A stretch of DNA of 64,000 nt, taken from assembly GCA_030710605.1 (NCBI GenBank), contig CP092880.1:11263639-11327638 (forward strand), read 5' to 3'. This document shows, one piece after another, positions 10,654-63,183 of this stretch (position 1 is the stretch's first letter; the number at the start of each line of letters is the position of its first letter). The stretch is from Cordylochernes scorpioides (Eukaryota; Arthropoda; Arachnida; Pseudoscorpiones; Chernetidae). The notes beneath the pieces are model-generated. The model was not told the DNA's origin. It did no database searches and saw nothing but the letters and a program-made list of their open reading frames with translations. Made by a program: the position numbers and the translations under genes.

Positions 10654-13393
10654 GTCTTAGGAAGTTGTTGTTGTCGTGTCCAATGAAGATCCTCAGATGT
10701 CTCCATACATCTCTATCACAGCAGTCGCAATGTCCACTATCTTGGGTTTGTAAAGCTACTGTTCTGGGTCCATGTCAATATTCTGTTGTTGTTGTCGTGT
10801 CCAATGAAGATCCTCAGATGTCTCCATACATCTCTATCACAGCAGTCGCAATGTCCACTATCTTGGGTTTGTAAAGCTACTGTTCTGGGTCCATGTCAAT
10901 ATTCTGTTGTTGTTGTCGTGTCCAATGAAGATCCTCAGATGTCTCCATACATCTCTATTACAGCAGTCGCAATGTCCACTATCTTGTATGTGTAAAGATG
11001 CTGTTCTGGGTCTATGTCAATTTTCTGTTGTTGTTGTCGTGTCCAATGAAGATCCTCAGATGTCTCCATACATCTCTATCACAGCAGTCGTAATGTTCAC
11101 TATCTTGGGTGTGTAAAGCTGCTGCTCTGGCCCCATGCCAATTTTCTGTTGTTGTTATCGTGTCCAATGAAGAGCCTCAGATGTCTCCATACATCTCTAT
11201 CACAGCAGTCGCAATGTCCACTATCTTGGGTGTGTAAAGCTGCTGTTCTGGGCTCATGTCAATTTTCTGTTGTTGTTGTCGTGTCCAATGAAGATCCTCA
11301 GATGTCTCCATACATCTATATCACAGCAGTCGTAATGTCCACTTTCTTGGGTGTGTAAAGCTGCTGTTCTGGGCTCATGTCAATTTTCTGTTGTTGTTGT
11401 CGTGTCCAATGAAGATCCTCAGATGTCTCCATACATCTATATCACAGCAGTCGTAATGTCCACTATCTTGGGTGTGTAAAGCTGCTGTTCTGGGCTCATG
11501 TCAATTTTCTGTTGTTGTTGTCGTGTCCAATAAAGATCCTCAGATGTCTCCATACATCTCTATCACAGCAGTCGTAATGTCCACTATCTTGGGTGTGTAA
11601 AGCTACTGTTCTGGGTCCGTGTCAATATTCTGTTGTTGTTGTCGTGTCCAATGAAGAGCCTCAGATGTCTCCATACATCTCTATCACAGCAGTCGTAATG
11701 TCCACTATCTTGGGTTTGTAAAGCTACTGTTCTGGGTCCATGTCAATATTCTGTTGTTGTTGTCGTGTCCAATGAAGATCCTCAGATGTCTCCATACATC
11801 TCTATCACAGCAGTCGTAATGTCCACTATCTTGGGTGTGTAAAGCTGCTGTTCTGGGCTCATGTCAATTTTCTGTTGTTGTTGTCGTGTCCAATGAAGAT
11901 CCTCAGATGTCTCCATACATCTCTATCACAGCAGTCGTAATGTCCACTATCTTGGGTGTGTAAAGCTGCTGTTCTGGGCTCATGTCAATTTTCTGTTGTT
12001 GTTGTCGTGTCCAATGAAGATCCTCAGATGTCTCCATACATCTATATCACAGCAGTCGTAATGTCCACTATCTTGGGTGTGTAAAGCTGCTGTTCTGGGC
12101 TCATGTCAATTTTCTGTTGTTGTTGTCGTGTCCAATGAAGATCCTCAGATGTCTCCATACATCTATATCACAGCAGTCGTAATGTCCACTATCTTGGGTG
12201 TGTAAAGCTGCTGTTCTGGGCTCATGTCAATTTTCTGTTGTTGTTGTCGTGTCCAATAAAGATCCTCAGATGTCTCCATACATCTCTATCACAGCAGTCG
12301 TAATGTCCACTATCTTGGGTGTGTAAAGCTACTGTTCTGGGTCCGTGTCAATATTCTGTTGTTGTTGTCGTGTCCAATGAAGAGCCTCAGATGTCTCCAT
12401 ACATCTCTATCACAGCAGTCGTAATGTCCCCTATCTTGGGTTTGTAAAGCTACTGTTCTGGGTCCATGTCAATATTCTGTTGTTGTTGTCGTGTCCAATG
12501 AAGATCCTCAGATGTCTCCATACATCTCTATCACAGCAGTCGTAATGTCCACTATCTTGGGTGTGTAAAGCTGCTGTTCTGGGCTCATGTCAATTTTCTG
12601 TTGTTGTTGTCGTGTCCAATGAAGATCCTCAGATGTCTCCATACATCTCTATCACAGCAGTCGTAATGTCCACTATCTTGTGTGTGTAAATCTGTGCTCT
12701 GGGTCCATTTAAATTTTCTGTTGTTGTTCTCGTGTCCAATTAAGATCCTCAGATGTCTCCATACATCTCTATCACAGCAGTCGTAATGTCCACTATCTTG
12801 GGTGTGTAAAGCTGCTGTTCTGGGCTCATGTCAATTTTCTGTTGTTGTTGTCGTGTCCAATGAAGATCCTCAGATGTCTCCATACATCTCTATCACAGCA
12901 GTCGTAATGTCCACTATCTTGGGTGTGTAAAGCTGCTGTTCTGGGCTCATGTCAATTTTCTGTTGTTGTTGTCGTGTCCAATGAAGATCCTCAGATGTCT
13001 CCATACATCTCTATCACAGCAGTCGTAATGTCCTTTATCTTGGGTTTGTAAAGCTGCTGTTCTGGGTCCATGTCAATTTTCTGTTGTTGTTGTCGTGTCC
13101 AATGAAGATCTTCAGATGTCTCCATGCATCTCTATCACCTCAGTCGCAATGTCCTCTATCTTGGGTGTGTAAAGCTGCTGTTCTGGGTCCAAATCAATTT
13201 TCTGTTGTTGTTGTTGTGTCCAATGAAGAGCCTCAGATGTCTCCATGCATTTCTATTGCAGCAGTTGCTCTTCATTGGAAAATAGGTACCGTTGCCACGT
13301 TAGTTACCTTGGACCAGAATTAGGTCAAATATTCCAAGGGTTCATGAGGAACTGGTGTGGTCAGACTTCTCCCACCCCCCGTCTTAGGAAGTT
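10654..13393 (-). mobile_element. LINE-B derivative whose tail became a satellite
   Basis: GTCTTAGGAAGTT at 10654-10666 is repeated exactly at 13381-13393 and frames the whole block. On the minus strand the insert starts (13380 downward) with the LINE-B 5' head, including the blocks GTTGCCACGTTAGT and GGTCAAATATTCC when read on the plus strand. It then passes into the LINE-B 3' tail, which is repeated about 21 times. The likely history is one retroposed, internally deleted LINE-B copy followed by in-place tandem expansion of its tail. Confidence 0.75.
10661..13240. repeat. 121-bp satellite array, about 21 units
   Basis: Each unit carries (GTT)3-4, CGTGTCCAATGAAGATCCTC, then AGATGTCTCCATACATCT, CACAGCAGTCGTAATGTCC, GGTGTGTAAAGCTGCTG and TTCTGGGCTCATGTCAATTT. 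Spacing is 121 bp (for example 10665, 10786 and 10907). The unit matches the LINE-B 3' end at 22415-22545. Variant units repeat with a 726-bp super-period. Short open frames of 69 codons recur only because the period keeps them open. They are not genes. Confidence 0.95.
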
Positions 13394-34450: not shown

Positions 34451-34672
34451 TTGGGGGGGAGAAGTCCGACCACATCTCCCTGCGGTCCCCCCTGGACCCT
34501 TGGAATATTCGACCAAATTCTGGTTCGTTTCCAAGGTGACTAACGTGGCAACGGCACCCATTTTCCAATGAGAGCAAAATAGTGGATATTGCTGCTGCTG
34601 TTGTAGAGATGTATGGAGACATCTGAGGCTCTTTTTTGGACACGACAACAACAACAACAACAACAACAACAT
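34451..34672 (+). mobile_element. Internally deleted LINE-B derivative
   Basis: The first 130 bp (GAAGTCCGACCACATCTCCC ... CGGCACCCATTTTCCAATGA) match the LINE-B 5' head at 47005-47125. The last 60 bp (GTATGGAGACATCTGAGGCT ... ACGACAACAACAAC) match the LINE-B 3' end. Everything between is missing. It sits in a (TG)n run that appears on both sides. Two ends without a coding region make it a SINE-like passenger of LINE-B. Confidence 0.75.
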
Positions 34673-39440: not shown

Positions 39441-39856
39441 CCGAAAAACCAAATTCAAACATGGCTCAGATGATTATCACCATAATGCTTAACATTTCTG
39501 TTGATGCCATACGGATTTCTTGACGGCAGAGCGTTAACTATGAGTTACTGATGGTTAGGTTTAACATGAGTGCAATGTATTGTATGTATGGCACCTATAT
39601 TCCTAATTTGTTTTAAAATGGAAGATCTTTCCTTTTGTTTCTAATATCGCAAGCGTGTTTGGAAAGACAGGAACTCAATGGTAACATTCTTCTTGTAAGA
39701 ACTGTGGTATGAAACTTATGCTATATTGTTTCAATTATTTTCCACCAAACCTACAATGAATATATCTACATACTCATAAAGTGCCCGTTTAACAATTAAG
39801 GTTTCAGTCAATGACCCAATCTGAACCAAATTTTACATATAAACATTTATTTAATT

Positions 39857-40046
39857 AAAAAGGCATATATTGGATCAAAATATCATTTATTTTACCAATA
39901 TTTCAGTTGGCTGAACGCCAACCTTTATCAAGGTGTTATAACATTTTAAACATTTTATAACACCTTGATAAAGGTTGGCGTTCAGCCAACTGAAATATTG
40001 GTAAAATAAATGATATTTTGATCCAATATATGCCTTTTTAATTAAA
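39857..40046. mobile_element. Foldback M2, near-perfect palindrome
   Basis: The arms begin AAAAAGGCATATATTGGATC and meet near 39952. The right arm contains CTTGATAAAGGTTGGCGTTC, then AGCCAACTGAAATATTGG: a 7-bp hairpin GGTTGGC/GCCAACT followed by GAAA. It is a hammerhead-like layout with a decayed CUGANGA. Related copies: 55861-56029, 62925-63166, and the outer arms at 4172-4661. Confidence 0.8.
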
Positions 40047-40194
40047 TATTTATTTATGGATTGCTCTTTTTTCAAAATAACCATTTATCAACTTGAAAAA
40101 GTCAAAGAGAGTGAACTCAAAAATAGGGGCTATACACATACAGGCTACTATACAAGAAACTAGAAAATAATATATTTAGAAATAGTAGACAAAC

Positions 40195-43475: not shown

Positions 43476-43782
43476 AAATATAAAAATAAAAATGTGAATT
43501 TTCATAAAGATTTCATCATGTCGATTTTTTTTTTTTGCATTTCACCTACTAAATCGATAGAGATAATTACATTTGCAACATGAACTTAGGTATATTGACT
43601 AAATAGAAAACTGCATAGTAATAAAGATCATTTTTTAAAGGCACCATATCGTTTTTTTTTAATAAAATCGAAACAAAAATTAACGATAAATAACGATAAT
43701 TGCCCTAAAAAGAAATTGCCTTAAAAAAAAAGAAACATTCGCGGTGATTTTGTCTTGCATTCGTTTATACAATTATTATATA

Positions 43783-43995
43783 TGAATGACCCGGGCAACG
43801 CCCGGGTTTTACCCGATTAAATGCTTTTATTCAAATACTATTCGTTACAATTATAAATTGGCGCCGTGGATGTCATTCTTGTATATTATATAAATGAGTT
43901 TTAAAAATTGTAAAAAAAAAAAAATGCATCGGCCGGGAATCGAACCCGGGCCGCCCGCGTGGCAGGCGAGCATTCTACCAGTGAACCACCGATGG
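43783..43995 (-). mobile_element. Helitron 3' end carrying a tRNA-Gly-like unit
   Basis: The hairpin CCCGGGCAACGCCCGGG lies at 43791-43807, but the CTAG end is lost. Inward come the shared TTATAAATTGGCGCCGTGG block, CATTTATATAATATACAAGA on the complement, a T run and the tRNA-Gly-like unit. This arrangement equals 15866-16063 in inverted orientation. Confidence 0.65.
43925..43995 (-). tRNA. tRNA-Gly(GCC)-like, near-canonical
   Basis: It is the best of the three glycine units. Anticodon GCC, T-stem CCGGG/CCCGG and discriminator A are correct. Two departures are C for G at position 1, so the first acceptor pair is lost, and a G to C change in the D-loop (TTCACTGG). It shares the position-1 change with 15866-15936. 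It could still be transcribed, but the repeat context argues for a pseudogene. Confidence 0.65.
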
Positions 43996-44375
43996 TTATG
44001 AAAAATCCCATCCGTGAGCTTCAAACAGACAGAATAAGGCAAATATATAAGTAGATACCATCTAAAGCTCTTGCAAATTTCATGGAACTTTGATTCTTCA
44101 ACGAGCCAAAGATGTAACTAAAAGATTGAACAATGTAGATGGGAGTATATAGTATAAAATATATGCATCATATTGCCACAGTTTCAAATTAGAATTTTAT
44201 TAATCAATTGAAACCCTTTGTGAGTGATATTTTCCTCACAACAAAACTAGAAAAAATGAAAAATCAGTTATAGAATTTACATACCTTCCTTATATAACAT
44301 TGAACATAAAGGTTTTTACATATTTACTAATAGTTTTGAAAATAGAGCAATCCATATTTAATTCATTATTAAAAA

Positions 44376-44777
44376 TGGCATATCCTGACCACTGACCAAT
44401 ATTGGCAAAATGAATCTTTTATTCAATCCAATATATGCCTTGTTTTATTATCTAATATTTACTAATAGAGACATTTGATTTACATGTTCTATAAACAAAT
44501 TTCGTGAAAATATATTCAAAAATATTCACTTATTTCACCAAGACTTTATAAAATTCTGATATTCTTGAATAGCTTTTTAAATTTTTTTTCCCCTTTTATT
44601 CTATGTTTTATATATATATGTTTTAACTTTTAATTAGACAATTTTAATTTATATTTGGACTTTTTCCGTTTTAATTTAGACACATGGACTTTTTATTGAA
44701 GAATCCATGTGTCTAAATAAAAATGAAAAAAAAAAGTCTAAATATAAATTAAAATTGTCTAATTAAAAGTTAAAAAC
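44376..44777. repeat. MITE fragments and an AT-rich foldback
   Basis: At 44376-44455 an M1 end (GGCATATCCTGACCA) is fused to an M2 arm (CCAATATTGG ... CAATATATGCC). At 44624-44777 two arms of about 70 bp (TTTTAACTTTTAATTAGACA ... ATGGA and the complement) form a separate foldback that ends seven bases before the large Tc1-type element. Confidence 0.65.
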
Positions 44778-45829
44778 CTATATACAGGGTGATCCAAAAG
44801 TCCCGCACAACTTTAAAAATTAATAACTCCGCGAATATTTGCGCTAAAGAAATGCGGTAAACACCATTGTGTTCAGGATGCAATGGATTTTTTATGGCAA
44901 ATAATGAAAAATTCGAAATTGATTTTAGTTACAACTTTATTCACTAGATGGCGCTCTACCAGAATCAGAGATTCAGCGGCCAAATTGTTTGATAAATTGA
45001 AAAATATAACTGAACGACACGTATTTTTCCTTTTTGAATACCAGGAAAGAACCCTAATAATATCAAATGATAAATTAATAAAACACCATTTCGCCAAAAG
45101 TTAGAAGAATTGGTTGACGATTTTTAAATACAATCTGAGATATGTAAAATAGGTATATGCAAATTAAAACATGTAGCAAAAAATATTTATATTTTAGATG
45201 GAGTTTTGTGAAATAAATTGAAGGTTTGAAAATAACTACTGATATCAATACACGATTTTTGAAATGTTAATATAGTACCAAAAATTATGATGGCACTACA
45301 AATAGGATTTCGTGCTATAAGGAATGTATAGTTTCTTGACTAATTGTCGACATTTGATTATTTAACTGGATATTTGTCATGATCCAAAAATGAAATATAG
45401 AGGGGAGTGGCAAAATATATTTGTCGTACTTTATTCCAAATATCCTATGGGTTTGTCAAATGTTATCATTGTTTATTATACTGTACATAATTTTGAAAAT
45501 GTATCCCCTCAAAAAAATCTTTTTTAAATCGACCTTTTACGTTGAAAAACGTGATAGTAAAATCATTTTGTATTATTTTTTGCGCAAAACATCTAAATTT
45601 GGGGGGGGGGGGGGGTACAGAAATTATTCCTTATGCTATTTCTTCTAATGAGCGAAACGCGATAAACTAAACATAAGGGGTAAAATTGTGTATACCAGTG
45701 TTATTCGAGAAGTTATAACACTTTGGCCTGCACGACATAATATAAAATGTGGGCAAATGACAAACAAAAAAATTACTGTTTACAGAAAAAAAAAGAGTCA
45801 AGATGTGAGGACAGCATTTATTATTCCCA

Positions 45830-46995
45830 TAACCCAAAACAAAGAGCTGCAAAATATAACACATGAGGTAACTGCCTTCTCTCTTGTATTAGGTCACAAT
45901 CCTTGCTCAATGTGGCGCCCTTCATTCTCAAACACCGCCTGCAGACGATAGATGACAGAATGGTCACAATTAAATAGTTGAAATTTATAAAACGTGCCAT
46001 CTGATAGAAGCATTCAACATGGCCAATGTGGTAGGCCGGCATCGATAAAAACGCGACTTAATGTACCCCCATAACCGAAATTGTAAGGCGTCAAGTCTGG
46101 TGATATTGGGGGCCACTGGTATATAAAGTGGCGACTTATCAACGAATTCCACCGAACGTATCCTTCAGCAATTGTTTGGCACCGCGGGAGATATGAGGAG
46201 GTCCTCCATCTTGCAAGAATGTTATTTCGCTTAGTACTTGTCTGTCCTGCAATATGGGAATAACCTTTTCTCTCAAAAGTTGAACATAACGTTCACCAGT
46301 TACAAAAACGGTGTTAAAAGTTCTTCCATTGATTTTTTCAAAGAAAAATGGCCCAATAATAAAAGAAGAAGTAACCCACACAAAACTGTAACTCTGTGCT
46401 GATGAAGTGGTATTTCTGTAAAAATCCTAGGGTTTTCTGTTGCCAAAATGAGGCAGTTTTGAATGTTAAATTCTCCCATTAGATAAAAGTGAGCATCATC
46501 TGTTCTTAGAACATTTGACAGCCAGTTTTCATCAATATCAATTTGCCGGAAAACCCATGCAGCGAATTCTTGACGCTTCTCAAAATCGCTGACTTTCAAC
46601 TCGTGGAAACTTTGAATTTTGTTAGGATATTTTTATAGAAAAATTCTAAATGTGTGTTCTCTCCAAACTGTTCAATACGAAATTCCCGTTTGTCGAGAAA
46701 CTTGTCTAGCACTTACTTCTCCATACGTGGATAACGTTTCAATAGCTTCAGCATTCTGCAAAACCGTAACAGCCACTGACTTGCATGTCGATGGTCTTCC
46801 ACTCCGAGGTTTTGCTTCCAGAGATCCAGTTTCCTCAAAACTTTTAAACAATCGTTTTAGAGAATAGCAACTCATTGGTCCTTTACCGCTTCGAATATCT
46901 TTAAAGGAACGAAACGCTCGTAAAGCTTCAGTGGCAGATTTTGAATCACAATTAAAACAATTCACCAAGAGTGCTTTATCCTGTAGTGACGGCAT
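45830..46995 (-). pseudogene. Transposase of element E, copy C1
   Basis: From ATG at 46995 it has an N-terminal helix-turn-helix region (ETGSLEAKPRSGRPST, then SARQVSRQTGISYGTVWR), as in IS630/Tc1-type transposases. An in-frame TAA follows RIFL near 46635. The catalytic part has RTDDAHF (first Asp) and FLQDGGPPHIS (second Asp). A frameshift near 46375 separates them. At the third position PDLTPYNFGYG has N where D or E is expected. The copy cannot make an active enzyme. Confidence 0.8.
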
Positions 46996-47130
46996 TCCAG
47001 GGGGAAGGGGAGAAGTTCGACCACACCTCCTTGCGGTCCCCCCTGGACCCTTGGAATATTTGACCAAATTCTGGTTCGTTTCCAAGATGACTAACGTTGC
47101 AACGGCACCCATTTTCAAATGAAGAGCAAA

Positions 47131-49170
47131 ACTGATATCTCCAGTAATGCTACCGCGTCCGGGGTAACCGCCGCGTCAGAAGCTGCAGCTCGAGCTCATG
47201 ATGAGAAATCTACTACGAGGACACAATTCAATCTACTACAACTCAATATAAATGGTACCAAGAGGAAAATAAAGAGCTGACTTGTCTTCTCTGTGACAAC
47301 AATGTACATATTAATTGTCCTCAGGAGACAAAATTGAATCAGAATCTGAGATTCAATATCAAAGATTATACAACACTACGAATGGACAGACCGGAAAAAT
47401 TCGGAGGAGGACTTGCCGTTTTGATAAAACTCTAGAAATCAAATTTAAGGAAATCGCCTATAATCAGAGTAAGCCTAGAGAAAGCACGACAGAAGCTCAG
47501 GCAATAGAAATCTATCTTACAGATAAAACAATTCCAATCATAAATGTTTATCACCACGATAATACTAGCATCAATGCAGGCCTGATAGAGACATTAAGTG
47601 AAGCGTCTTCGGATATCGCAATCATACTTGGTGATTTTAACGCCGAAAGACCAACTTGGGGATCACCTGTCCAGGATAACAAAGGTCAGCAGGTTGAGGA
47701 CATGCTAACCGACCTCGACCTTACGCCGTTAAATAACGAAAAGAACACCTATATATCCAAGTCCACAGGCACAGAATCCGCAATAGACATCACAGCGATA
47801 AATTACAACATCGCTCCCACAACACAATGGAAAATTCTGAAAAGTGCAATCAGTGACCACAGACCAATTTTAACAACCCTAAAATTCAAATTTGAGATGT
47901 TTCAACAGAATAAAAGAACACTGGAAAAAAATTTACAGAAAAGCTTGAAGAACTGTGCAACGAAGAAACAAATCACAGAACGATTGACAAAAACTTGGTA
48001 AAATTCTTTTTGAACATATCCAAAGCTGCAAAAGTATCGATACCTATAGGTAGACATAAAGACCTGTGAATACTTTACTGGAAGGACCACAATATCGAGG
48101 CAATGATTGCAGAGAGAGACAATAAAAATGAACTTCTTAAAACAAATAAAACAGAAGAAATCATAAAGGAACTCATTGAAATTAGTCACAAAATAAGAAC
48201 AAGAAATTTGGATATTCAAACAAGAAAAATGGGCAGAATTCTGCAAAGAAAATGGATCCAAAAAAGGAAAGCCATCACTGGAATATAATTAGTGTTATAA
48301 AACTCAAAACCAACACTAATCATCCAATACTCTAACCGATATGAACAGCGAGAACGAACAAACAGATGGCTGACATAATTTCTGAATATCTTTCAAGCAC
48401 TTCCAGACTCAGCTATACGAATGAAGGCAGGACTCTAAAAATTAATATAAACAAGTTAGTTAAACACAAGCAAGAAATTACCATCAACAAGATATTTACT
48501 CGAGAGACTTCACACTGAATGAGCTAAACTCATAAAAATAGGAAAGTTAAATCCAAGATGTCACCTGGAGATGCTCTAATCTTTGGTTAAATGATTAGGC
48601 ACTTTGGAGACGAAGCTAAAAATCAACTCCTATGAATACTGAACATTTCATGGCAAACTCGTAAACTACCAAAGAATTGGAAGATATCAATTATAGTGCC
48701 AATACTGAAACCAAACAAAGATGCTAAGGAATGCAAGAACTATCGGCCAATTGCTCTTACAAGCATACTTTGTAAAATAACAGAATGAATTATCCACTCT
48801 AGGCTTATAGTCTGGCTCACTAACAATAATAAAATAAACTTCTACCAAACTGCCTAAAGATCCAGACACTGTACAACTGATAAACTGTTCTACTTCTGTC
48901 AATCAATAATAGATTTCTAGGAAAAACCGCCAAAGAAGACAACGGCCGTATTCCTGGATATGACCTCAGCTTTTGTTCGAGTGTAGAAATTATTTGAAAG
49001 GCTGCACAACATCGGAGTAAGAGGAAAAACTCAATCTGAATTGCAGACTTCTTAAGGGGAAGAAGGACAAAGGTTCGGGTCAATGGAACATTTTCCAAGG
49101 ACCGAAGAACATGGGCTGGTGTACCTCAGGGATCTGTGCTCAGTCCTCTACTCTTCTCGCTATATATTAA
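47131..49170 (+). pseudogene. LINE-B endonuclease and reverse transcriptase, decayed
   Basis: The open segment 47315-48001 has IILGDFNAERPTWGS and SDHRPI, two signature motifs of the exonuclease-endonuclease-phosphatase domain of apurinic-type LINEs. Broken RT blocks follow: VPILKPNKDAKECKNYRPIA (about 48697-48756), VFLDMTSAF (about 48940), and GVPQGSVLSPLLFSLYIN (49114-49170), which is RT block 4/5. Multiple stops and frameshifts separate them. The YxDD block is absent because the gypsy inserted here. Jockey/CR1-like. Confidence 0.8.
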
Positions 49171-49691
49171 CTGTTGTTTATGTAAATAGATGAATATTAT
49201 TTGTATTATTTAAAGCCTCATTATGTAAAAATATATGTATATATAAATTGGACATTTGTTGTTGGCCATGGTCAAGTTTGAGCTCTTGTACGTCTAATTA
49301 CGACACAACAAAAGTGGCGACGAGGATGCGCGATCTACAGAGCCAGTAAAAAGCTGAGGAAAACGGCGTCTATGCAAGTATAACAACTACAACTTTTAAA
49401 CAAATCTGACTCTCGGATTATGGAGAGGAAAAATAAGAAAATGGGTTAAGATTACATCTTTTAAACTATCTGAATCAAGAAAACAAAGGAGTAGAAAAGA
49501 TCAGCATGACAAGTTCAAAGTTAATAATACCTTTTAGATGCTATAGCCCAGTGGAGGACACTTCGATCTTTTTGTACAAAAATTTGAGGCTTTCTTTTTG
49601 GCATCTGAAGAAGGAGATTAAATGCTGATTTTTACCTCGCTACCAGATTCTGAAACTTTGAAGCAGGGAAACAACATTTTCTTCTGGTCCA

Positions 49692-50063
49692 ATGAATGAT
49701 CAACCCTATGATACTATCTTTCGAAGAATTAAGCTGCATTTGGATCCAAAGAAGAAAGTGATACCACAGCTATGCAGATTTTTAAAGAGAATTCAACAGG
49801 AAGGAGAATCAATTTCGGAATATCTTAGAGAATTGAAACATTTGGCAATAAATTGTAATTTCGTCGATATGTTGGGAACCATGATGCGAGACCGTTTTGT
49901 GGCTGGAATCAAGTCGGAAATCCTGCAAAAGAAGCTACTACAAGAGGACGACGATGTCACCCTGGATAAAGTTTTTGCAGTGGCGATCTCTTTCGAATTG
50001 GCGGAGATAAATACAAGAGAATTACAAGATAAATTAGTGGTCAAGATATCCCCTGTGAATTGA
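49692..50063 (+). pseudogene. Gypsy gag fragment
   Basis: The frame includes FRRIKLHLDPKKKVIPQLC and FLKRIQQEGESISEYLREL. The helical Q-x-x-ES-x-x-EY/F-L-x-x-L signature is typical of Ty3/gypsy gag (retrotrans_gag). Stops precede it (49430-49690) and follow it. A CCHC knuckle is partly visible downstream: CYRCGERHSH near 50140, and CNKLGHLSRVC in the next frame. Confidence 0.75.
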
Positions 50064-50151
50064 AAGGATAAAAAGGGCGACTACAATAATAGTACGGCGC
50101 AGTATAGGCCTTTCAGGCAAAGTGGCAAAGGCAAAATAGTGTGTTATAGAT

Positions 50152-50504
50152 GTGGTGAAAGACATTCACACGTGGCATCTGTTTTATCTCATAGAACAAA
50201 GACTTGTTTTAAAATGTAATAAACTGGGTCATTTAAGTAGGGTCTGCAAAGCTAGTAAAAGAATGTGGGGATGTAAATTTGTACAAGAGGACTCTATACA
50301 TTCTGTACAGGGCGAAACTGATGCCACAATAAATTTAACAGTAGATGATTATTATTTGTGCTTTACAATAGATACAGGAAGTCCAGTTACGTTAATACCT
50401 AAAGATATTTATAAGAATTATTGGCAAGGTAAAATAATATTTCCAACAAATTTAAGATTAAAATCCTTTTGTGGTAAATCAATAGAGATTATAGATCAAA
50501 GAAA
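50152..50504 (+). pseudogene. Gypsy zinc knuckle and protease, interrupted
   Basis: CNKLGHLSRVC (50212-50244) precedes FTIDTGSPVTLIPKDIY, the aspartic-protease active site with DTG. The frame runs into the TA where element E copy C2 has inserted (50505-50506). It resumes after C2 at 55681 with a frame that reaches ILLGREWLKQF, the C-terminal protease motif. Removing C2 and one TA restores a continuous reading, which dates C2 after the gypsy. Confidence 0.85.
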
Positions 50505-51549
50505 TACAGGGTGATCCAAAAGTCCCGCACAACTTTAAAAATTAATAACTCCGCGAATATTTGCGCTAGAGAAATGCGGTAAACACCATTGTGTTCAGGA
50601 TGCAATGGGAATTTTTATGGCAAATAATGAAAAATTCGAAATTGATTTTAGTTACAACTTTATTCGCTAGATGGCGCTCTACCAGAATCAGAGATTCAGC
50701 GGCCAAATTGTTTGATAAATTGAAAAATATAACTGAACGACACGTATTTTTCCTTTTTGAATACCAGGAAAGAACCCTAATAATATCAAATGATAAATTA
50801 ATAAAACACCATTTCGCCAAAAGTTAGAAGAATTGGTTGACGATTTTTAAATACAATCTGAGATATGTAAAATAGGTATATGCAAATTAAAACATGTAGC
50901 AAAAAAATATTTATATTTTAGATGGAGTTTTGTGAAATAAATTGAATATTTTAAAATAACTACTGATATCAATACACGATTTTTGAAATGTTAATATAGT
51001 ACCAAAAATTATGATGGCACTACTAATAGGATTTCGTGCTATAAGGAATGTATAGTTTCTTGACTAATTGGCGACACTTGACTATTTAACTGGATATTTG
51101 TCATGATCCAAAAATGAAATATAGAGGGGAGTGACAAAATATATTTGTCGTACTTTATTCCAAATATCCTATGGGTTTGTCAAATGTTATCATTGTTTAT
51201 TATACTGTACATAATTTTGAAAATGTATCCCCTCAAAAAAAATCACTTTTAAATCGACCTTTTGCTTTGAAAAACGTGGCAGTAAAATCATTTTGTATTA
51301 TTTTTTGCGCAAAACATCTAAAGTTGGGGGGGGGGGGGGGGGGTAACAGAGATTATTCCTTATGCTATTTCTTCTAATGAGCGAAAAGCGATAAACTAAA
51401 CATAAGGGGTAAAATTGTGTATACCAGTGTTATTCGAGAAGTTATAACACTTTGGCCTGCACGACATAATATAAAATTGTGGGCAAATGACAAACAAAAA
51501 AATTACCGACTACAGAAAAAAAAAAGAGTCAAGATGTGAGGACAGCATT

Positions 51550-52660
51550 TATTATTCCCATAACCCAAAACAAAGAGCTGCAAAATATAACACATGAGGT
51601 AACTGCATTCTCTCTTGTATTAGGTCACAATCCTTGCTCAATGTGGCGCCCATCATTCTCAAACACCGCCTGCAGACGATAGATGACAGAATGGTCACAA
51701 TTAAATAGTTGAAATTTATAAAACGTGCCATCTGATAGAAGCCTTCAACATGGCCAATGTGGTAGGCAGGCATCGATAAAAACGCGACTTAATGTACCCC
51801 CATAACCGAAATTGTAAGGCGTCAAGTCTGGTGATATTGGGGGCCACTGGTATATTAAAGTGGCGATTTATCACCGAATTCCACTGAACGTTTCCTTCAG
51901 CAATTGTTTGGCACCGCGGGAGATATGAGGAGGTCCTCCATCTTGCAAGAATGTTATTTCGCTTAGTACTTGTCTCAAAAGTTGAACATAACGTTCACCA
52001 GTTACAAAAACGGTTTTAAAAGTTCTTACATTGATTTTTTCAAAGAAAAATGGCCCAATAATAAAAGAAGAAGTGAACCCACACAAAACTGTAACTCTGT
52101 GCTGATGAAGTGGTATTTCTGTAAAATTCCTAGGGTTTTCTGTTGCCAAAATGAGGCAGTTTTGAATGTTAAATTCTCCCTTTAGATGAAAGTGAGCATC
52201 ATCTGTTCTTAGAACATTTGACAGCCAGTTTTCATCAATATCAATTTGCCGGAAAACCCATGCAGCGAATTCTTGACGCTTCTCAAAATCGCTGACTTTC
52301 AACTCGTGGAAACTTTGAATTTTGTTAGGGTATTTTTATAGAAAAATTCTAAATGTGTGTTCTCTCCAAACTGTTCCATACGAAATCCCCGTTTGTCGAG
52401 AAACTTGTCTAGCACTTACTTCTCCATACGTGGATAACGTTTCAATAGCTTCAGCATTCTGCAAAACCGTAACAGCCACTGACTTGCATGTCGATGGTCT
52501 TCCACTCCGAGGTTTTGCTTCCAGAGATCCAGTTTCCTCAAAACTTTTAATCAATCGCTTTAGAGAGTAGCAACTCATTGGTCCTTTACCGCTTCGAATA
52601 TCTTTAAAGGAACGAAACGCTCGTAATGATTCAGTGGCAGATTCTGAATCACAATTAAAA
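51550..52660 (-). pseudogene. Transposase of element E, copy C2
   Basis: Collinear with the C1 transposase. It shares the TAA after RIFL and the N at the third catalytic position (PYNFGYG). It lacks the C1 frameshift, so 51871-52302 is open, but has a 30-bp in-frame deletion after RYVQLLR. The N-terminal 12 or so codons are separated by the Helentron insert and lie at 54338-54375. Confidence 0.8.
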
Positions 52661-52668
52661 AAAACAAT

Positions 52669-54335
52669 GGTTGCCTGTAAAGTCGGTTTTACGGGCGAAG
52701 ATTTTACGTGACAACGGTAGAATATTTATTGATATGAATATAATTAAATTGCACAATAGGAACAAGGAATTGAATGAAAATAAGAATTGCACAAATTTTA
52801 ACTATAGAAATATATTTTGTTTACTAAAACATTGTACATGTAAACTTAAACTTAACTAATTCCTATTTGAGTGATTTTGTTGAGGATAGGACGATGATAG
52901 GACTTGCATAAATGGAAGGCGCGGTGAGACCAAACGTTCACTGATAGGATCCAGAGGCGGTAGACCTGGAGGTATGTCAGGATATGAGAAGCCGTTGACC
53001 TTTGCGAGAGTAGGAAGCTTACGCTTATTCAGTGATTGTCTACAGGTGTTGCAAGACTTTGTATAATCCTCCTTGCGTAGCTGCCGATTTTCCTTAACGT
53101 ACCAATCCGAGATTACCTTCAGTTGTAGTGCAGTGATGGTTTTAAGGTCATTCTTGAACCACAATCTGTCACAAACCGAGCAAGCATGGCCAAAATCGTT
53201 GTCCAGGAAAGTAGATTGAAATCTCCGTATTGACGATGACCATTTGGTATACCAGGTGGATTGTTCCAGTTGTATTGCTGTTTGGCTTGAAGAAGTAGTC
53301 GGTTGTACATCAGTCCGAGAAGATGCTGCTCTACGTTGTCGGAATGCACGTTGCCGTTGGAGCGTTAGTTAGGGGAACGCTCGTTCTCTCCGCCACGACA
53401 GGAACGCTTGTTCTCTCCACCACAGAACAAGACGTTGAAGCAGGTGACTCTGACGTACCGCTGGTGAGGGCTATGTTAGCAGATTTACGTAGCTTGAACC
53501 TGCGTTGCCTCTCCGCAGCCGCTTTTGCAAAGGCTCTTACTTGTTCAGGAGTTCTGGTCAATGCTTTTCGTAGTCTGTACTCACGTTGTCGCTGAGCATT
53601 CGTTCTGGCGGTAGAGGTGGTGTGTGGAACAACGAAAGGTACTGCAGACGTTGACGGCACGATATCCTCCGTCTCCATTGAAGTACTGGAAGTTGAAGGC
53701 ACCGTTTCCATTGTTTTGAGAGTGGTGATTCCTGTTGAACATTTGAAATTGAATGGATGAATTTTTAATTTAAAGAATCAATTTGAAAATCAAAACACTT
53801 ATTCAGATCGAAGGTTCAAATTTTTGCTAAATAAATTTGAAACTATTTAAAATTTGTAAAATAATAATTAATTAATTAATTAATTTTAAACTAATAATTT
53901 ACTTAACACTATCAACATTTATCAATAGTATGACATAACCTATAAACTCAGTTTCTCAACTTTTGTGTCAATCTAACAATTAATCAATCAATCATAGTTT
54001 ACGATAATGAAATATGAGTGTACAATTATTTACCTTTATTGTTGTAGTTGTTGTAAATGATGAATCTAAGCACTCCACATTTTCACTACAGACACAGCTG
54101 ACGATACTTTAACCACACGTGTGAACTTGTATTATGACGCTTTCTTGTTTTTCCAACGCCAAGAACGTTCGAGAAAGACAAAGACAGAGACAAGCATGCG
54201 CCGATTCAATGCGCCTAATTCTCTAGCGCTGCGCGCGCAGCACTCTCGTTCGGTGACTCATCGTAACGTTACCGGGCGTTACACTTTTTCATAAGTGACT
54301 CCCAGCCGCAACCTAATTTAAGACGTTGTCACGTC
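52669..54335 (-). mobile_element. Helentron/Helitron2-like fragment in C2
   Basis: The sequence interrupts the C2 transposase between CACAATTAAAA and CAATTCACCAAG, positions that are contiguous in C1. AACAAT lies on both sides (52663-52668, 54336-54341). Subterminal inverted repeats of 11 bp (ACGTGACAACG at 52706-52716, CGTTGTCACGT at 54324-54334) and GC-rich terminal stems resemble Helentron ends. It encodes the N-terminal part of a Helitron protein but lacks the Rep and helicase domains, so it is non-autonomous. Confidence 0.65.
52856..53711 (-). pseudogene. Helitron-type protein, N-terminal part only
   Basis: Three overlapping minus-strand frames run in sequence. 53711-53331 has a RQREYRLRK motif and serine/threonine-rich flanks. 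53349-53119 continues, and after a frameshift ACSVCDRLWFKNDLK can be read. 53164-52856 contains CNTCRQSLNKRKLPTLA, GLPPLDPISERLVSPRLPFM. These blocks match the conserved domain upstream of the HUH nuclease in animal Helitrons (DUF6570-like). Nothing of the nuclease or helicase follows. Confidence 0.7.
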
Positions 54336-54380
54336 AACAATTCACCAAGATTGCTTTATCCTGTAGTGACGGCATTCCAG

Positions 54381-55103
54381 AGGGAAGGGAGAAGTTCGAC
54401 CACACCTCCTTGCGGTCCCCCCTGGACCCTTGGAATATTTGACCAAATTCTGGTTCGTTTCCAAGATGACTAACATTGCAACGGCACACATTTTCAAATG
54501 AAGAGCAAAACTGATATCTCCAGTAATGCTACCGCGTCCGGGGTAACCGCCGCGTCAGGAGCTGCAGCTCGAGCTCATGACGAGAAATCTACTACGAAGA
54601 CACAATTCAATCTACTACAACTCAATATAAATGGTACCCAGAGGAAAATAAAGAGCTGACTTGTCTTCCCTGTGACAACAATGTACATAATAATTGTCCT
54701 CAGGAGACAAAATTGAATCAGAATCTGAGATTCAATATCAAAGATTATACAAAACTACGAATGGACAGACCGGGAAGGAGACTGCTTCTGTGCACGTACC
54801 CTCTTGCACTCCTATACCAGGGCCTGTTGCTGTGCACGTGCCCTCTTGCACTCCTAAACCGGAGCCTGCCGCTGTGCAAGTGCCCGTCCGCAGTCCTAGA
54901 CCTCAGAGAGCCAGGAAACCCCTAGCCCGACTGGAGTATTATTAAGGGGGGAGATGTGTTGTGTATGTAAATAGATGAAGATTATTTGCATTCTTTAAAG
55001 TCTCATTATGTAAGAATATATGTGTATATAAAAATTGGCCATTTTTTTGTCGGCCAAACGAAAAGAATCTGAGGCTCTTTATTGGACACTACAAAAACAA
55101 CAA
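54381..55103 (+). mobile_element. LINE-B/gypsy deletion remnant inside C2
   Basis: 54381-54775 equals the LINE-B 5' region (47001-47392). At about 54775 it switches to the gypsy C-terminal and 3' region (58640-58926), including the polypurine tract and an LTR start at 54957. The LINE-B 3' tail follows, including its CACTACAAAAACAACAA end. The truncated-LTR junction with the LINE tail is shared with C1, so that deletion is older than C2. Confidence 0.85.
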
Positions 55104-55860
55104 CGGCATTCCAGAGTAAAATAAATCATCAGAGATAGATAAATATTTTTCAAATGAATTAAAATAAATATAATCGATACTGAGAGAGAGTTGAATTTAA
55201 AAAAAAATAGAGAATTATTATTTTCGAAATATAAATAGCTGAGAGTATTCCAGCAAACCGCATCTAAAATATCAGTTTTTTTTTTGCTACATGTTTTAAT
55301 TTGCATATACCTATTTTACATATCTCAGATTGTATTTAAAAATCGTTAACCCTTTCTTCTAACTTTTGGCGAATGGTGTTTTATTAATTTATCATTTGAT
55401 ATTATTAGGGTTCTTTCCTGGTATTCAAAAAGGAAAAATATGTGTCGTTCAGTTATATTTTTCAATTTATCAAACAATTTGGCCGCTGAATCTCTGATTC
55501 TGGTAGGGCGCCATCTAGCGAATAAAGTTGTAACTAAAATCAATTTCGAATTTTTCATTATCTGCCATAAAAAATCCCATTGCATCCTGAACACAATGGT
55601 GTTTACCGCATTGCTCTAGCGCAAATATTCGCGGAGTTATTAATTTTTAAAGTTGTGCGGGACTTTTGGATCACCCTGTATTTTTGTAAAAGAAGCCAAC
55701 CAATATTTACGATTAATAGTTGTAAATGAAAAAATCCAGGTAATTTTATTAGGAAGAGAATGGCTTAAACAGTTTGAAACTTGATTATTCTATATTATTT
55801 AGCATTAAAATTTTAAATAATGAATATAATACGATAATAACAAGAATATATATTAGATAA

Positions 55861-56029
55861 TAAAAAGGCATATATTGGATTTAATAAAATATTTATTTTG
55901 CCAATATTTCGGCTGGCTGAACGCCAACCTTTATTTTCAGCCAGCCGAAATATTGGCAAAATAAATATTTTATTAAATCCAATATATGCCTTTTTATTAT
56001 CTAATGAATTAAATATGGATTGCTCTATT
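55861..56029. mobile_element. Foldback M2 inside the gypsy
   Basis: The arms AAAAAGGCATATATTGGATT ... and complement meet near 55938. The arm contains GGCTGGCTGAACGCCAACCT and CAGCCAGCCGAAATATTGG. It lies in the gypsy between protease and RT. Confidence 0.8.
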
Positions 56030-56119
56030 TTCAAAAAGAATATATATATAGAAATATATTTAAATATATAAAAATTTGATGGATAGGTATGCAGATTTGT
56101 TTAACAAAGATTTGGGCTG

Positions 56120-56900
56120 TCTCTAAAGGACGTTAGCATAATTTTTAATTTAAAAAAGGATGTGACTCCTGTGTTTTGTAAGGCCAGAAGTTTACCTTTA
56201 TCTCCAAAAAACAAAGTAGAGAATGAAATTGATCGTTTAGTGATTTCTTGCATTTTATAACCTATAGTTCATGCATATTGGACCGCTCCAATAGTACCGG
56301 CATCAAAAAAGGATGTTAGTGTAAGGATATGTGGTGATTTTAGATGTACAGCTAATAAAGCAATAGAATTAGATAGGTATCCCATTCGATCGATCGATGA
56401 GATCTTTTCAAAATTATCTACAAGCACCGTACTTTCGACTCTAGACCTATCACAGGCTTACTTACAAGTAATGTTAGCGGAAGAAGCCAAAGCTGTTGTT
56501 GATATAAACACAACAAAGAGGTTGTTTTCTTATAAAAGACTACCATATGACGTAGCGGTAGCACCAAATAAATTTCAGAGGATTATGGAAGGCCTATTTT
56601 CTGATTTGCCAGGTGTGGCCTGCTATATAGATAATATTTTGGTTGCAGGAAAAGACTTTAAAGATCATGAACAAAAGTTGGATCTAGTGTTTAGATGATT
56701 GCTAGAAAAAGGTTTAAAGTTAAACAGATATAAATGTAAATTTAAAAAGAAATCAGTGGAATTTTTAGGGTTTAAAATGGATAAATATGGACTGCATCCC
56801 TTAGAAAATAAAATTAAAGCAGTGATAGAGGCGCCTGAACCTAAAGAATGTTTCGCAATTGAGATCTTTCATAGGACTCTTAATTTATTATTATAGATTC
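56120..56900 (+). pseudogene. Gypsy reverse transcriptase, broken
   Basis: Blocks in order: SASKKDV-type entry (TAPIVPASKKDVSVRICGDF, about 56281-56340), STLDLSQAYLQV (block with the first catalytic Asp, about 56433-56470), YKRLPYDVAVAPNKFQRIME, and CYIDNILVAG (about 56621-56650). The last has N at the second Asp of the YxDD box. A TGA at 56696-56698 and stops near 56255 and 56895 break the frame. Confidence 0.85.
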
Positions 56901-56959
56901 ATAAATAATATAGCAAACATTTTAGCGCTATTCTATCAACTTTTGAATAAAAATTGTAG

Positions 56960-57580
56960 ATGGAATTGAACGAAAAATATCGAATGTTATTTAAAAAATA
57001 TAAATCATTATTAATGGACTATGGACTAGGCGTAATTCTGAGTCATAGAAATGATAGAAAGGAAGAATGCCCTATAGCTTTTGCTTCTAGAACATTAACT
57101 GAAGCGGAAAAACGGTACTCTCAACTAGAAAAGGAAGCGTTGAGCATAACTTATGGCGATGAGAAATCAAGACAATACTTACTGGGACGAAAAATCGTAT
57201 TAGTCACAGACAACCGACCCTTAATTCATATATTTTCACCTCAGAAACCAATTCCCATATGTGCAGCATCCAGAATTAAAAGATGGTCCTTAAAATTAGC
57301 TGCATTTAATTATACTGAGGAGTTTCGAAAAAGTAGTGATAATTCCAATGTTGACGCATTGTCACGTCTTCCTTTAGAATCGAGTGTCAGGGAGTTTCTT
57401 GATGAAGACCAGGTACTTCTTCTCAGGAAGTTGAATGAGGTACCGTTCTCTTTTAGGGAGGTGGCATATGAGACGTCCCGAGATAAAATACTGTCTATAG
57501 TATTAAGGAATGTTAGAGAAGGCAACTGTGTGAAAATTCACAAGGGTACTGAGGGAAAACCCACTAGCTCCTTATTATAA
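56960..57580 (+). pseudogene. Gypsy RNase H segment, open frame
   Basis: The 206-codon frame has DYGLGVILSH, PIAFASRTLTEAEKRYSQLE, KEALSI, FLVTDNRPL-like LVTDNRPLIHIF and NVDALSRLP. These are the RNase H and connection motifs of Ty3/gypsy pol in normal order. It is the longest surviving part of this pol. The segment before it, with the end of RT, is truncated. Confidence 0.88.
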
Positions 57581-57599
57581 GATCAATGAGGAATTAAGT

Positions 57600-58432
57600 T
57601 TGGAGTTTGATTGTTTTCAATGGCGTGAAAGAGTGGTAATTCCCCAAAAATTAATATCTTTAATTTTAAATGACTTGCATGAAATACACATGGGGATTGT
57701 TAAAATGAAGATGATTGCCAGACGGTATTTTCTGGTGGCCAGGCATAGACAGTAACATCAAAGAGTTAACTAGAGAATGTAGAGTATGCCAAGAATCGGC
57801 AAGCATGCCCCCGGCTACCATCTCGGAATGGACTTGGCCCGAAAAACCGTGGCATCGACTTCATCTTGATCTAGCGGGTCTGTTCATGCGAAGAATGTTT
57901 TTGGTTCTCGTGGACGCATACTCAAAGTGGATAGAAATTTTTATCATCAAAGATATTACCAGAAAAACGATTATAAGTCATCTTAGAGAAATTCTCGCCA
58001 GAATTGGATTGCCCTAATATTTTGTTACAGATAACGGAAGACAGTTTGTCCTCCGATGAATTCGAGCAATTTACCAAAATGAATGGTATACGGCACACTA
58101 AGACCAGTCCGTATAATCCTAGTACAAATGGTTTAGCTGAGAGATATGTAAGAGAGTTTAAAAACCTTTTGAGAAAGAATAATGGGAAGGATGATATAGA
58201 GACGAAACTACAAAGTTTCCTATTTGCTCATAGAGCATTCCCCCAAACTGTAATAAAGGAATTCCCCGGCGGAACTGCTAATGAAGAGAAGTTTAAGATC
58301 AAGATTCTCGAATTTAATACCAAGATGAGAAATCCGCGAGAGGTATTTCATGAGGCCGTAAGAAGGCAGGAGCAGTTTACTACAGGTTGCGAGGTTTATT
58401 TCCGCAACTATGCAACTGGACCTAAACGGTAA
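57600..58432 (+). pseudogene. Gypsy integrase, frameshifted
   Basis: Zinc-site remnants (LHEIHMGIVKM, about 57678-57710) precede 57715-58017 with CRVCQESAS and HLDLAGLF (first catalytic Asp). A shift near 58004-58030 damages the TDNG block (reads ITEDSLSSDEF). The second part (58004-58432) has NGLAERYVREFKNLL with the catalytic Glu. The C-terminal extension to about 58790 is proline-rich and not conserved. Confidence 0.85.
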
Positions 58433-59146
58433 AAAGGTACCATTTTGGAATTATTGAGCTACCGTCACTACCTTATAAGTTGCGAGGGCGTTGTGTATAA
58501 GAGGCATATCAATCAATTGCGACCTGTGAGAAAGAAACAAGTGGAGACAAGAAATTTGATACTTCCTCGAACATTAGGAGAGAAGCCTGTAGGTGGAAGT
58601 CAGAAATAAAGTGAAGAGGAGGTTCCAGAGGTTACATCAGGAAACAAGGAGGAGACTGCTTCTGTGCACGTACCCTCTTGCACTCCTATACCAGGGCCTG
58701 CTGCTGTGCACGTGCCCTCTTGCACTCCTAAACCGGAGGCTGCCGCTGTGCAAGTGCCCGTCCGCAGTCCTAGACCTCAGAGAGCCAGGAAACCCTAGAC
58801 CGACTGGAGTATTATTAAGGGGGGAGATGTGTTGTGTATGTAAATAGATTAAGATTATTTGCATTCTTTAAAGTCTCATTATGTAAGAATATATGTGTAT
58901 ATAAATTGGACATTTTTTGTTGGCCAAACGAAAAGAATCTGAGGCTCTTTATTGGACACGACAAAAACAACAACGGCATTCCAGAGTAAAATAAATCATC
59001 AGAGATAGATAAATATTTTTCAAATGAATTAAAATAAATATAATCGATACTGAGAGAGAGTTGAATTTTAAAAAATAGAAAATTATTATTTTCGAAATAT
59101 AAATAGCTGAGAGGATTCCAGCAAACCGCATCTAAAATATCAGGTT

Positions 59147-59548
59147 TTTTTTTTTGCTACATGTTTTAATTTGCATATACCTATTTTACATATCTCAGAT
59201 TGTATTTAAAAATCGTTAACCATTTCTTCTAACTTTTGGCGAAATGGTGTTTTATTAATTTATCATTTGATATTATTAGGGTTCTTTCCTGGTATTCAAA
59301 AAGTAAAAATACGTGTCGTTCAGTTATATTTTTCAATTTATCAAACAATTTGGCCGCTGAATCGCTGATTCTGGTAGGGCGCCATCTAGTGAATAAAGTT
59401 GTAACTAAATCAATTTCGAATTTTTCATTATTTGCCATAAAAAATCCCATTGCATCCTGAACACAATGGTGTTTACCGCATTTCTTTAGCGCAAATATTC
59501 GCGGAGTTATTAATTTTTAAAGTTGTGCGGGACTTTTGGATCACCCTG
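59147..59548. repeat. Right TIR of element E copy C1
   Basis: The complement of 44785-45190. It includes TTAATAACTCCGCGAATATT and AGATGGCGC on the complement. TIRs of this length let single strands snap back over 400 bp. Confidence 0.85.
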
Positions 59549-59550
59549 TA

Positions 59551-60500
59551 TGTTAAACCATGCTTCTTAGTTAAATCTTTGGCTAGTGAAAGTACGGAAG
59601 TACAAAACCTAGTCGTGATTCAATATGAGAAATGTTATGCGATAAAATTGTTTTTAAATAATCTCAAATTGCCATTATCGAATGGAGATAGGGCAAATAA
59701 TTTTAGAATTCAACAACGAAACATATATTTCGCTAGCAAGCAAATTTCCTATTTAGGATAGCTGATAGACAGGAATGAAATCATCTCAATCAGAAAGACA
59801 CAAATCCCAAGAAGTCTTCTAGCCAGGAGACCAGATTGAGGTAGCCAGGTCCATTTAAAATATTGGACCTTAATCTGTGAAAGATGGATCTCTCCACCCC
59901 GCTAATCTGCTGAGTTACTCGCCCGCTGATTGGACGACACGTATGTTTATCCTACGGGACTCGTGCCCTTCGTCTGCTTACTGTAAACGGCACCTTTCTG
60001 TCGAAATATCCGTTTTTCAACTGTAGCTTTGAGTAAAAAAAGCTTTGAGTAGCCTATATATGCAAAATTTATCAATGGTTATGTTGAAGAAGAGTAAAAA
60101 ACGAACAATTTATCCTGACAATTATGGATTCAGTATGGAGTGGAAGATAGCCCCAAGAAAATTGTTTATTAAATGTTCGTTTGGCAAGCTTTCACTATAG
60201 TAATACAAACCGGTCGAAGCCAGGTTTATTCTCTCGTTTATAATAAAAACATCATTTGCCACAAACATTAAGTATAATACATATATAGTAAGAGAATTAA
60301 TAATTTATTTTCAACTAAAGCAACTTTCAACTGTCTATACTCTCTTGTCAGGACAATACAGGGAGGACAATTGCTCATCAGTGGTAAACCCTCTCAGGGA
60401 TTTCCTCAGTTTGATTATCAGACCTTTCTTAATAAGTTTAGGCTGTTCTGCTTCTATAACTAGATTCGCCCGTTACGCGTCATGAGCAATATATATATAT
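59551..60500. other. Unassigned, with an F1-like fragment and possible Helitron end
   Basis: A frame at 59570-59761 has no domain I recognise. At 60208-60240 ACCGGTCGAAGCCAGGT resembles a decayed Helitron hairpin. At 60354-60420 GAGGACAATTGCTCATCAGT ... resembles the F1 inner arm. Confidence 0.35.
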
Positions 60501-60504
60501 ATAT

Positions 60505-60750
60505 TGTGGCGAAGAAATTATTTAATTTAATTTAATATTATTCAATGAAAATATACAACAGATTATAAAAATATATATTACTCTGTATTTGTAAAATCAT
60601 CTTTAAAATGTTTATTTGCTTGCTTGTTCAAGATTCTCTAGCAGTAGATAGTTTGGTTAATTTGTTAATAATTGTCGACTGGCCGTGGTGACGTCATCAA
60701 TAAATACTTTCACATCTCCAGATATATAAAGATTTGATTTCTACGCTACA
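60505..60750 (+). mobile_element. Solo LTR, family V, copy 2
   Basis: Begins TGTGGCGAAG, ends CTACGCTACA, and is flanked by ATAT in an (AT)n run. Aligns along its length with 24752-25004, including the GACGTCATCAATAAATACTT block. Confidence 0.6.
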
Positions 60751-61087
60751 ATATATATATATATTGAAAGTGTTTTAGAATAATTATTTGGAAATATTCA
60801 GCGAATATATACCGAATATGTAAAACCCGCTGTTTTATAAGCATTAAATGGACACAGAAATTATATTTCAAAATAAAAAATAAATGTATGAATTTGTTTT
60901 AAATATATTAATGAAAATCATGAAAACTTTTATCCCAAAGTTTAAAAGCAAAAGCAAAGGTTTTTCGGTGTGTAAATTAATCTCGGGTTTCAGAATGAGA
61001 ACGTTATATCAGAAAGGTATCAAGAAATGTAAGACTGTGATGTCTCCAGATAACAACAGTAGGGAGGAACCTACCTGTATTGTAGTC

Positions 61088-62640: not shown

Positions 62641-62924
62641 ACAATCGCTGCTATCTCTATATTTCTTCAAATAGGTTTGTTTAATTAGAGATTTGTAGGA
62701 TCACATTTTTGATTTTTTTTTAAATTTTGTAATCCTAATTGTATGAATGTGATGCAATTTCTTTATAAATAATATTTGAACTATAGTTGAGGTGATATTT
62801 ATATTAATTCATTATATTATTTAATATATATTATAGTATATAACCCGATAGAAATAAATATTCTATATTTGTTTATTGTTCTGAAAATAGAACAATCAAT
62901 ATTTAAATATTTATATTATTATTG

Positions 62925-63166
62925 GATTGTATAAAATATTTATTTGCCAATATTTCGGTTGGCTGAACGTCAACCTTTATCAAGTCATTACAATTTTGTA
63001 TAAACAAACTCAGCGCCGCATAGTGTTATGCTCCAGCCACATTATACGGCGCTGATTTTCTTTATACAAAAATGTAATGCCTTGATAAAGGTTGGCGTTC
63101 AGCCAACCGAAATATTGGCGAATAAATATTTTATTCAATCCAATATATGCCTTTTTATTATCTAAA
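62925..63166. mobile_element. Foldback M2 with a long centre
   Basis: The arms have CCAATATTTCGGTTGGCTGA and the complement. The centre contains CAGCGCCGCATAGTG and a second, inner inverted pair (CAGCGCCG ... CGGCGCTG), absent from other M2 copies. Confidence 0.75.
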
Positions 63167-63183
63167 GATTTGTTGAATCATCC

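Follow-up and report, generated by a model that had tools for sequence, protein, structure and literature searches.

A Tc1/mariner-type element carrying LINE and gypsy cargo, and a nested pair of its copies, in the pseudoscorpion Cordylochernes scorpioides

The window analysed here is a stretch of 64,000 nucleotides from the pseudoscorpion Cordylochernes scorpioides (contig CP092880.1 of assembly GCA_030710605.1, positions 11,263,639 to 11,327,638 of the forward strand), and our subject is a composite mobile element within it, in which a DNA transposon, here called E, carries the remains of a long interspersed nuclear element (LINE) and of a gypsy retrotransposon. Self-comparison of window positions 43500-61000 reproduced the nested arrangement proposed by an earlier, sequence-only reading: composite copy C1 (44785..59548; no strand is assigned to either copy) holds a LINE with an 11-bp target duplication, the LINE holds a gypsy, and the gypsy is interrupted at a TA by a second copy, C2 (50507..55678). 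Both are copies of one TA-flanked element with terminal inverted repeats (TIRs) of about 400 bp, and TA stands on each side of C1 (44783-4 and 59549-50) and of C2 (50505-6 and 55679-80). The termini of E are CAGGGTGATCCAAAAGTCCC and its reverse complement, and the arms end CAGGGTG. Its TIRs measure approximately 400-430 bp and are 94-96% alike; the C1 arms, located by self-comparison (left, 44785..45214, forward strand; right, 59115..59548, reverse strand), align over 438 columns at 95.7%.

Three collinear blocks are common to C2 and C1: 50504-52663 with 44782-46960 (96%), 54336-54776 with 46956-47397 (97%) and 54776-55684 with 58650-59554 (97%), each with a reported E-value of 0.0, and chance is excluded by their length. 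C2 retains both cargo boundaries; as had been claimed, it contains the same 11-bp flanks of the LINE and the same junction, where a truncated gypsy long terminal repeat (LTR, ending at 58926 in C1) is followed by the LINE tail (58939-58972). It is a deletion derivative, in which the equivalent of C1 position 47397 is joined to that of 58650 (junction at 54776), and it carries a foreign insert of 1.67 kb (52664..54335, reverse strand) with a match to DUF6570 (PF20209), a domain known from Helitron proteins.

The cargo is bounded by the 11-bp sequence ACGGCATTCCA, at 46989..46999 on the left and 58973..58983 on the right, which comparison with empty sites identifies as a target duplication and which is present at both places in C2 also. 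The 5' part of the LINE (47000..49171, forward strand) encodes an endonuclease domain (PF14529, E = 2.7e-20) and stops within the reverse transcriptase, the start of which was recognised by eye. Its 3' tail (58939..58972, forward strand) abuts the right target duplication; a near-identical copy of these 34 bp (2 mismatches) closes a short LINE-like element (34455-34671), a tandem array (10664-13265) holds further copies with 2-3 mismatches, and shuffled sequences gave no match. The shared tail together with the empty-site-backed 11-bp duplication therefore identifies the outer insertion as a LINE with its own 3' end. A reading in which the cargo ends on the right with the gypsy 3' LTR was considered and rejected, as the last 34 bp are the LINE tail that recurs elsewhere in the window. 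None of the 40 scored LINE matches was seen to lie outside a composite; all are 98-100% identical and probably composites.

Within the LINE lies the gypsy, represented by a 5' LTR, gag and the start of pol to the left of C2 (49172..50504), by pieces of reverse transcriptase, RNase H and integrase to its right (55681..58829) and by the truncated 3' LTR (58830..58926), all on the forward strand. The LTR pair beginning at 49172 and 58830 shows 90.7% identity over 97 bp; matches to PF00078, PF17917 and PF17921 follow the reverse transcriptase-RNase H-integrase order of Ty3/gypsy elements in interrupted frames, and gag gave a weak profile match only. The simplest reading is that the gypsy inserted in the LINE and that a deletion then juxtaposed the cut LTR and the LINE tail. 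C1 is not a composite transposon in the bacterial sense of two whole insertion sequences flanking a cargo, because what flanks the cargo is one E, split into its two ends by the insertion.

Short relatives of this LINE are present elsewhere in the window. The element at 34455-34671 consists of the first approximately 125 bp of the LINE and its 3' tail, ends in an AAC repeat and resembles a minimal LINE derivative. The tandem array at 10664-13265 comprises 21.5 copies of a 121-bp unit that includes the LINE 3' tail; it adjoins a LINE 5' start at 13265-13373, and the whole is a short LINE derivative in which a satellite-like expansion took place.

E is a Tc1/mariner-superfamily element of approximately 2.8 kb, placed there because of its TA target, its TIRs and the homology of its relatives. 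The TA duplication is found at C1 and C2, at all 12 complete composites described below and at the cargo-free copies L040 and L042. When the E flanks were joined without the cargo and used as a query, 37 of the 40 scored matches spanned the joint at 83-94%, the other three covering one side only. All four cargo-free copies that were read (L039-L042) have a single, uninterrupted 11-mer; L040 (2,772 bp) and L042 (2.9 kb) are complete with TA on both sides, and the search pattern found neither end of L039 and left one end of L041 unfound. A pattern for the cargo-free site has 1,007 genome matches at up to three mismatches. On account of these empty-site matches cargo-free E is a real family, and it is more diverged than the composite. 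Homology of a DDE/D transposase to known members was seen in a relative, L045 (88% DNA identity to the left E part, E-left, of the composite), with 37 residues between the second and third D as read by eye at the presumed catalytic positions.

The composite itself recurs throughout the genome. At up to three mismatches, 2,584 genome sites match the left E/LINE boundary and 3,849 match the right LINE-tail/E boundary, with none for either reversed control. Of 20 loci fetched as the best matches of the genome search, twelve hold a complete composite; eleven of these measure 8.5-9.7 kb and the twelfth, a shortened one, 6.6 kb. TA flanks all twelve on both sides, and when 200-bp flanks were compared between loci, those in the window among them, no match was obtained at E 1e-5. 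The left boundary is identical in all of the complete copies, and the LINE/gypsy boundary and the right boundary were each found in 11 of the 12. On contig C1 (a contig label, distinct from copy C1), where exact boundaries were paired (48 left, at least 100 right), there are 20 pairs on one strand within 20 kb, 14 of them spaced 6.38-6.75 kb.

Mean pairwise divergence is 2.3% for E-left (14 sequences), 2.4% for the LINE (10), 2.0% for E-right (14), and 1.8% and 2.1% for two gypsy pieces (11 and 12 sequences). As E, LINE and gypsy parts are equally diverged, at about 2%, they were amplified together; variable sites are mostly singletons (249 versus 35 shared in E-left), as expected if a single burst followed the assembly of the composite. 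The earlier proposal that E moved after gaining the LINE and gypsy is thus upheld by boundaries repeated genome-wide, TA flanks and equal divergence, and the composite (approximately 9.4 kb, of which some 6.6 kb is cargo) is very probably a mobile family that spreads with its retrotransposon passengers. Were all 2,584 copies of full length they would amount to approximately 24 Mb, near 0.9% of the 2.62-Gb genome, an upper-end figure.

The transposase of E survives in C1 as a remnant (45950..46999, reverse strand) with its start codon inside the 11-bp target sequence. Neither C1 nor any of the 12 complete composites has a full-length frame, the longest pieces being about 220 amino acids, and a stop and frameshifts are common to most composite copies, with local differences in L026, L036, L023 and L019. 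Since the composite's own transposase is broken, with lesions mostly common to its copies, the enzyme is probably supplied in trans. A protein search with a 144-amino-acid transposase piece of L042 gave 21,067 candidates; 149 of the 150 scored places have no internal stop and about 50 of these 150, by eye, lie in an open frame of 420-421 amino acids. The L045 frame matches the Sleeping Beauty transposase structure 5cr4 (E = 1.9e-8) and, less closely, SETMAR 3k9j (E = 0.038), and the TIRs of L044 and L045 show 94.5% identity to the composite right TIR over 400 bp; a PDB search with the C2 transposase pieces and the L042 piece gave no match. Relatives with long open frames such as these could plausibly be the source of transposase for the composite.

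L044 and L045 also represent a second cargo-bearing lineage. In both, the transposase frame is long and open, and the target site of the first cargo is present once, in slightly altered form. At the E position that corresponds to 59049 both sequences pass into a different LINE, in which gag-like and endonuclease-like frames were recognised by eye. They lie on two contigs and are 97.7% identical over approximately 6.2 kb, to the end of the fetched sequence. The E/LINE junction of this lineage has 448 genome matches and is exact among the matches listed; on contig C1, by eye, a listed junction is no more than 1.5 kb away from 11 of 18 transposase matches. The sequence fetched (L044-L047) showed no right TIR and did not reach the right end. 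The 11-kb side (L046 plus L044) holds, in addition, an inverted E piece. Repeated capture of cargo by E is plausible. By boundary patterns the cargo-bearing forms match more often than the cargo-free site, a comparison in which cargo-free E, being older, is undercounted by the three-mismatch pattern (the looser transposase search gave the 21,067 candidates above). We offer as a speculation, and a rather doubtful one, that for the E clade the carrying of whole retrotransposons is no handicap, that cargo-bearing forms arose at least twice and that cargo may even help. If it does, added promoters, escape from silencing aimed at the parent, or long TIRs that make length unimportant might be responsible.

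C1 and C2 belong to different branches of the composite family. In a tree of 20 E-left sequences C2 groups with L022, L023, L024, L025, L028, L030, L031 and L032 (support 0.98), with C1 apart. At sites diagnostic for the two subfamilies, C1 has the A variant at 43 of 44 and the B variant at none, and C2 has B at 14 of 18 and A at 3; the subfamilies were defined on E-left, so that the 13 diagnostic sites there are partly circular, L029, which lies between the groups in the tree, was counted as A, and of the 44 C1 sites just six are on the right-hand side of C2. These data make C1 a single coherent copy and place the origin of C2 in another subfamily. That C2 came from a cargo-bearing copy and landed in a composite, as had been proposed, agrees with the cargo boundaries it kept and with the TA on both sides. 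Its host had been taken to be the ancestral or a sibling composite; a sibling fits the subfamilies, whereas C2 cannot be read as a deleted copy of C1 itself, given that C2 is mainly of type B and C1 of type A.

The landing site also bears on this history. The sequence-only reading placed the interruption exactly at a TA, and TA does flank C2; that account, however, lacked both the 1.67-kb insert and the finding that all 11 readable siblings, of the 12 complete composites, have TG at this position. The uninterrupted site has 686 genome matches at up to one mismatch, of which 13 are exact with TA, a few more having TA and another mismatch, and most likely C1 belonged to this TA minority before C2 landed. 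Such a nest had been thought rare. If 2,584 copies of 9.4 kb inserted at random in a genome of 2.62 Gb, approximately 12 composite-in-composite events would be expected (N squared times L over 2G, all copies assumed to be of full length), and in L030 another E starts at a TA inside the composite's own TIR (position 9474). With some 12 self-nests expected by chance the C1/C2 nest is not in itself remarkable, and we regard it as an ordinary collision between family members.

The sequence-only reading had also suggested looking through the genome for further copies of the C2 type, with the junction at 54775; a search of the whole genome returned one match, the deletion junction of C2 itself, with the same outcome among 40 scored matches, so the loss of the middle is private to C2. 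Two composites on contig C1, 30 kb apart, had appeared as candidates for a second such copy, their boundaries being approximately 5.17 kb further apart than usual, near the length of C2. One of the two (L043, read in part) proved to have a different insert, in its LINE, and for that one the spacing is a coincidence. L025 and L028 are internally deleted too, which has no bearing on when C2 was shortened. C2 could equally have lost its middle before landing or in place, and we hold the chances of the two orders to be even: the single genome match and a joint that shares at most approximately 2 bp, as expected from end joining, favour a C2 that landed complete and was shortened in place, whereas a deleted donor could itself have been lost, or could have moved by cut and paste and left no copy behind.

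We propose the following history for the composite. One E copy would have received a LINE by target-primed reverse transcription at the transposase start codon, with the 11-bp duplication; that LINE would then have received the gypsy; and a deletion would have removed the gypsy LTR end and most of the 3' half of the LINE, to judge from how near the truncated LTR stands to the LINE tail. The order of these early steps is what we infer from the nesting. Because the TIRs were untouched, the composite of approximately 9.4 kb remained mobile as a cut-and-paste substrate and reached thousands of copies, the transposase probably coming from intact relatives in the genome, and a subfamily-B composite, C2, landed at a TA in the gypsy of a subfamily-A composite, C1. 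Taken as a whole, amplification of a cargo-bearing E as a cut-and-paste unit, with C2 landing in C1, is the explanation in which we have high confidence.

The nest could be imagined as a misassembly of separate family copies, as thousands of near-identical copies are a setting in which assemblies can fail, but C1 is of A type on both sides of C2 (43 of 44 sites, none B) and C2 has mostly B variants (14 of 18 sites, with A at 3), exact TAs flank both ends of C2 and siblings are continuous across the site; we consider an assembly error very improbable. It is also unlikely, though slightly less so, that segmental duplication or ectopic gene conversion, and not transposition, distributed the composite. 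The transposase tract of L019 is unlike that of its siblings and looks converted, and on contig C19 (31243708-31283621) the uninterrupted C2 site is matched exactly four times on one strand, at spacings of about 13.3 kb, which suggests a local tandem duplication that includes a composite; against such a mode of spread, all 12 complete copies end at their TIRs with TA on both sides, and comparison of flanks between copies showed no similarity. Repeated LINE insertion at one hot spot of E could in principle account for the recurrent LINE boundary, the target being short and some LINEs being site-selective. We find this scarcely credible, as the gypsy insertion point and the LINE tail/E boundary are each common to 11 of the 12 complete copies and divergence is similar in all segments.

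Several observations weigh against amplification of the composite as an intact cut-and-paste unit, or limit how far it should be taken. The excess of right over left boundaries suggests many partial copies, and the 20 fetched loci, as best matches, favour well-kept ones. Within the sequence retrieved, eight of these loci were not complete, and two of the eight contain N. On contig C1, of the 48 exact left boundaries listed, only 20 could be paired with an exact right one from the list at a distance of up to 20 kb. The family has probably undergone some gene conversion too, as in L019. With respect to the helper, the identity between E-left of the intact lineage and that of the composite is only 88%, Pfam transposase matches fell below cut-offs except for DUF4817 in L045, and we infer both its action on the composite and its identity.

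Other features around the nest are palindromic. The gypsy of C1 contains a palindromic insert of approximately 195 bp (55832..56026, no strand assigned) with 70-bp perfect arms, which is absent from five of six siblings read, the sixth (L027) having other sequence there; relatives of it lie at 39856-40077 and 62852-63171 in the window. An imperfect palindrome of approximately 172 bp (44613-44784) ends exactly at the TA where C1 starts.

Bursts of non-autonomous elements normally involve short derivatives, and cut-and-paste elements are usually described as losing efficiency with length. In those parts of the published sources on which the following comparisons draw, DNA transposition is stated to fall significantly above 6 kb of cargo, with 100-200 kb moved in artificial constructs (PMC6431247), and a review table gives Sleeping Beauty vectors a cargo capacity of approximately 10 kb (PMC3878927). 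E shares with Sleeping Beauty and other Tc1/mariner elements the TA target duplication, the TIRs and, in L045, a frame that matches 5cr4; unlike the vectors, it is a natural element with approximately 6.6 kb of retrotransposon cargo and thousands of copies. Teratorn of medaka, a piggyBac element joined to a herpesvirus, is likewise a DNA transposon with a second mobile element on board, the two forming one unit (PMC6431247, PMC5601938, PMC10175614), but it belongs to another superfamily and has a many-gene virus as its cargo, at 41-182 kb, whereas the composite has LINE and gypsy fragments and a broken transposase. The bird mariner galluhop also has thousands of non-autonomous copies with no coding copies found (PMC5556988); there it was mainly deletion derivatives of 500-600 bp that amplified, and here a form of over three times the length of cargo-free E. 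KolobokP has been described as a composite-like eukaryotic DNA transposon (PMC9587614), with long terminal direct repeats that each have their own TIRs and, in the part of that source consulted, no retrotransposon cargo inside one element. A limited search of the open-access literature, some of it in part-text, found no report of an amplified Tc1/mariner element with a LINE and gypsy cargo unit.

The interest therefore lies in the cargo-bearing family behind the nest and not in the single nest. Thousands of 9.4-kb non-autonomous Tc1/mariner copies with a broken LINE and gypsy inside amount to a natural test of the size limit on such elements. Fragments of one class of element can in this way be disseminated by another with no reverse transcription involved, and in such a genome the numbers of LINE or gypsy copies are in part a measure of DNA transposition.

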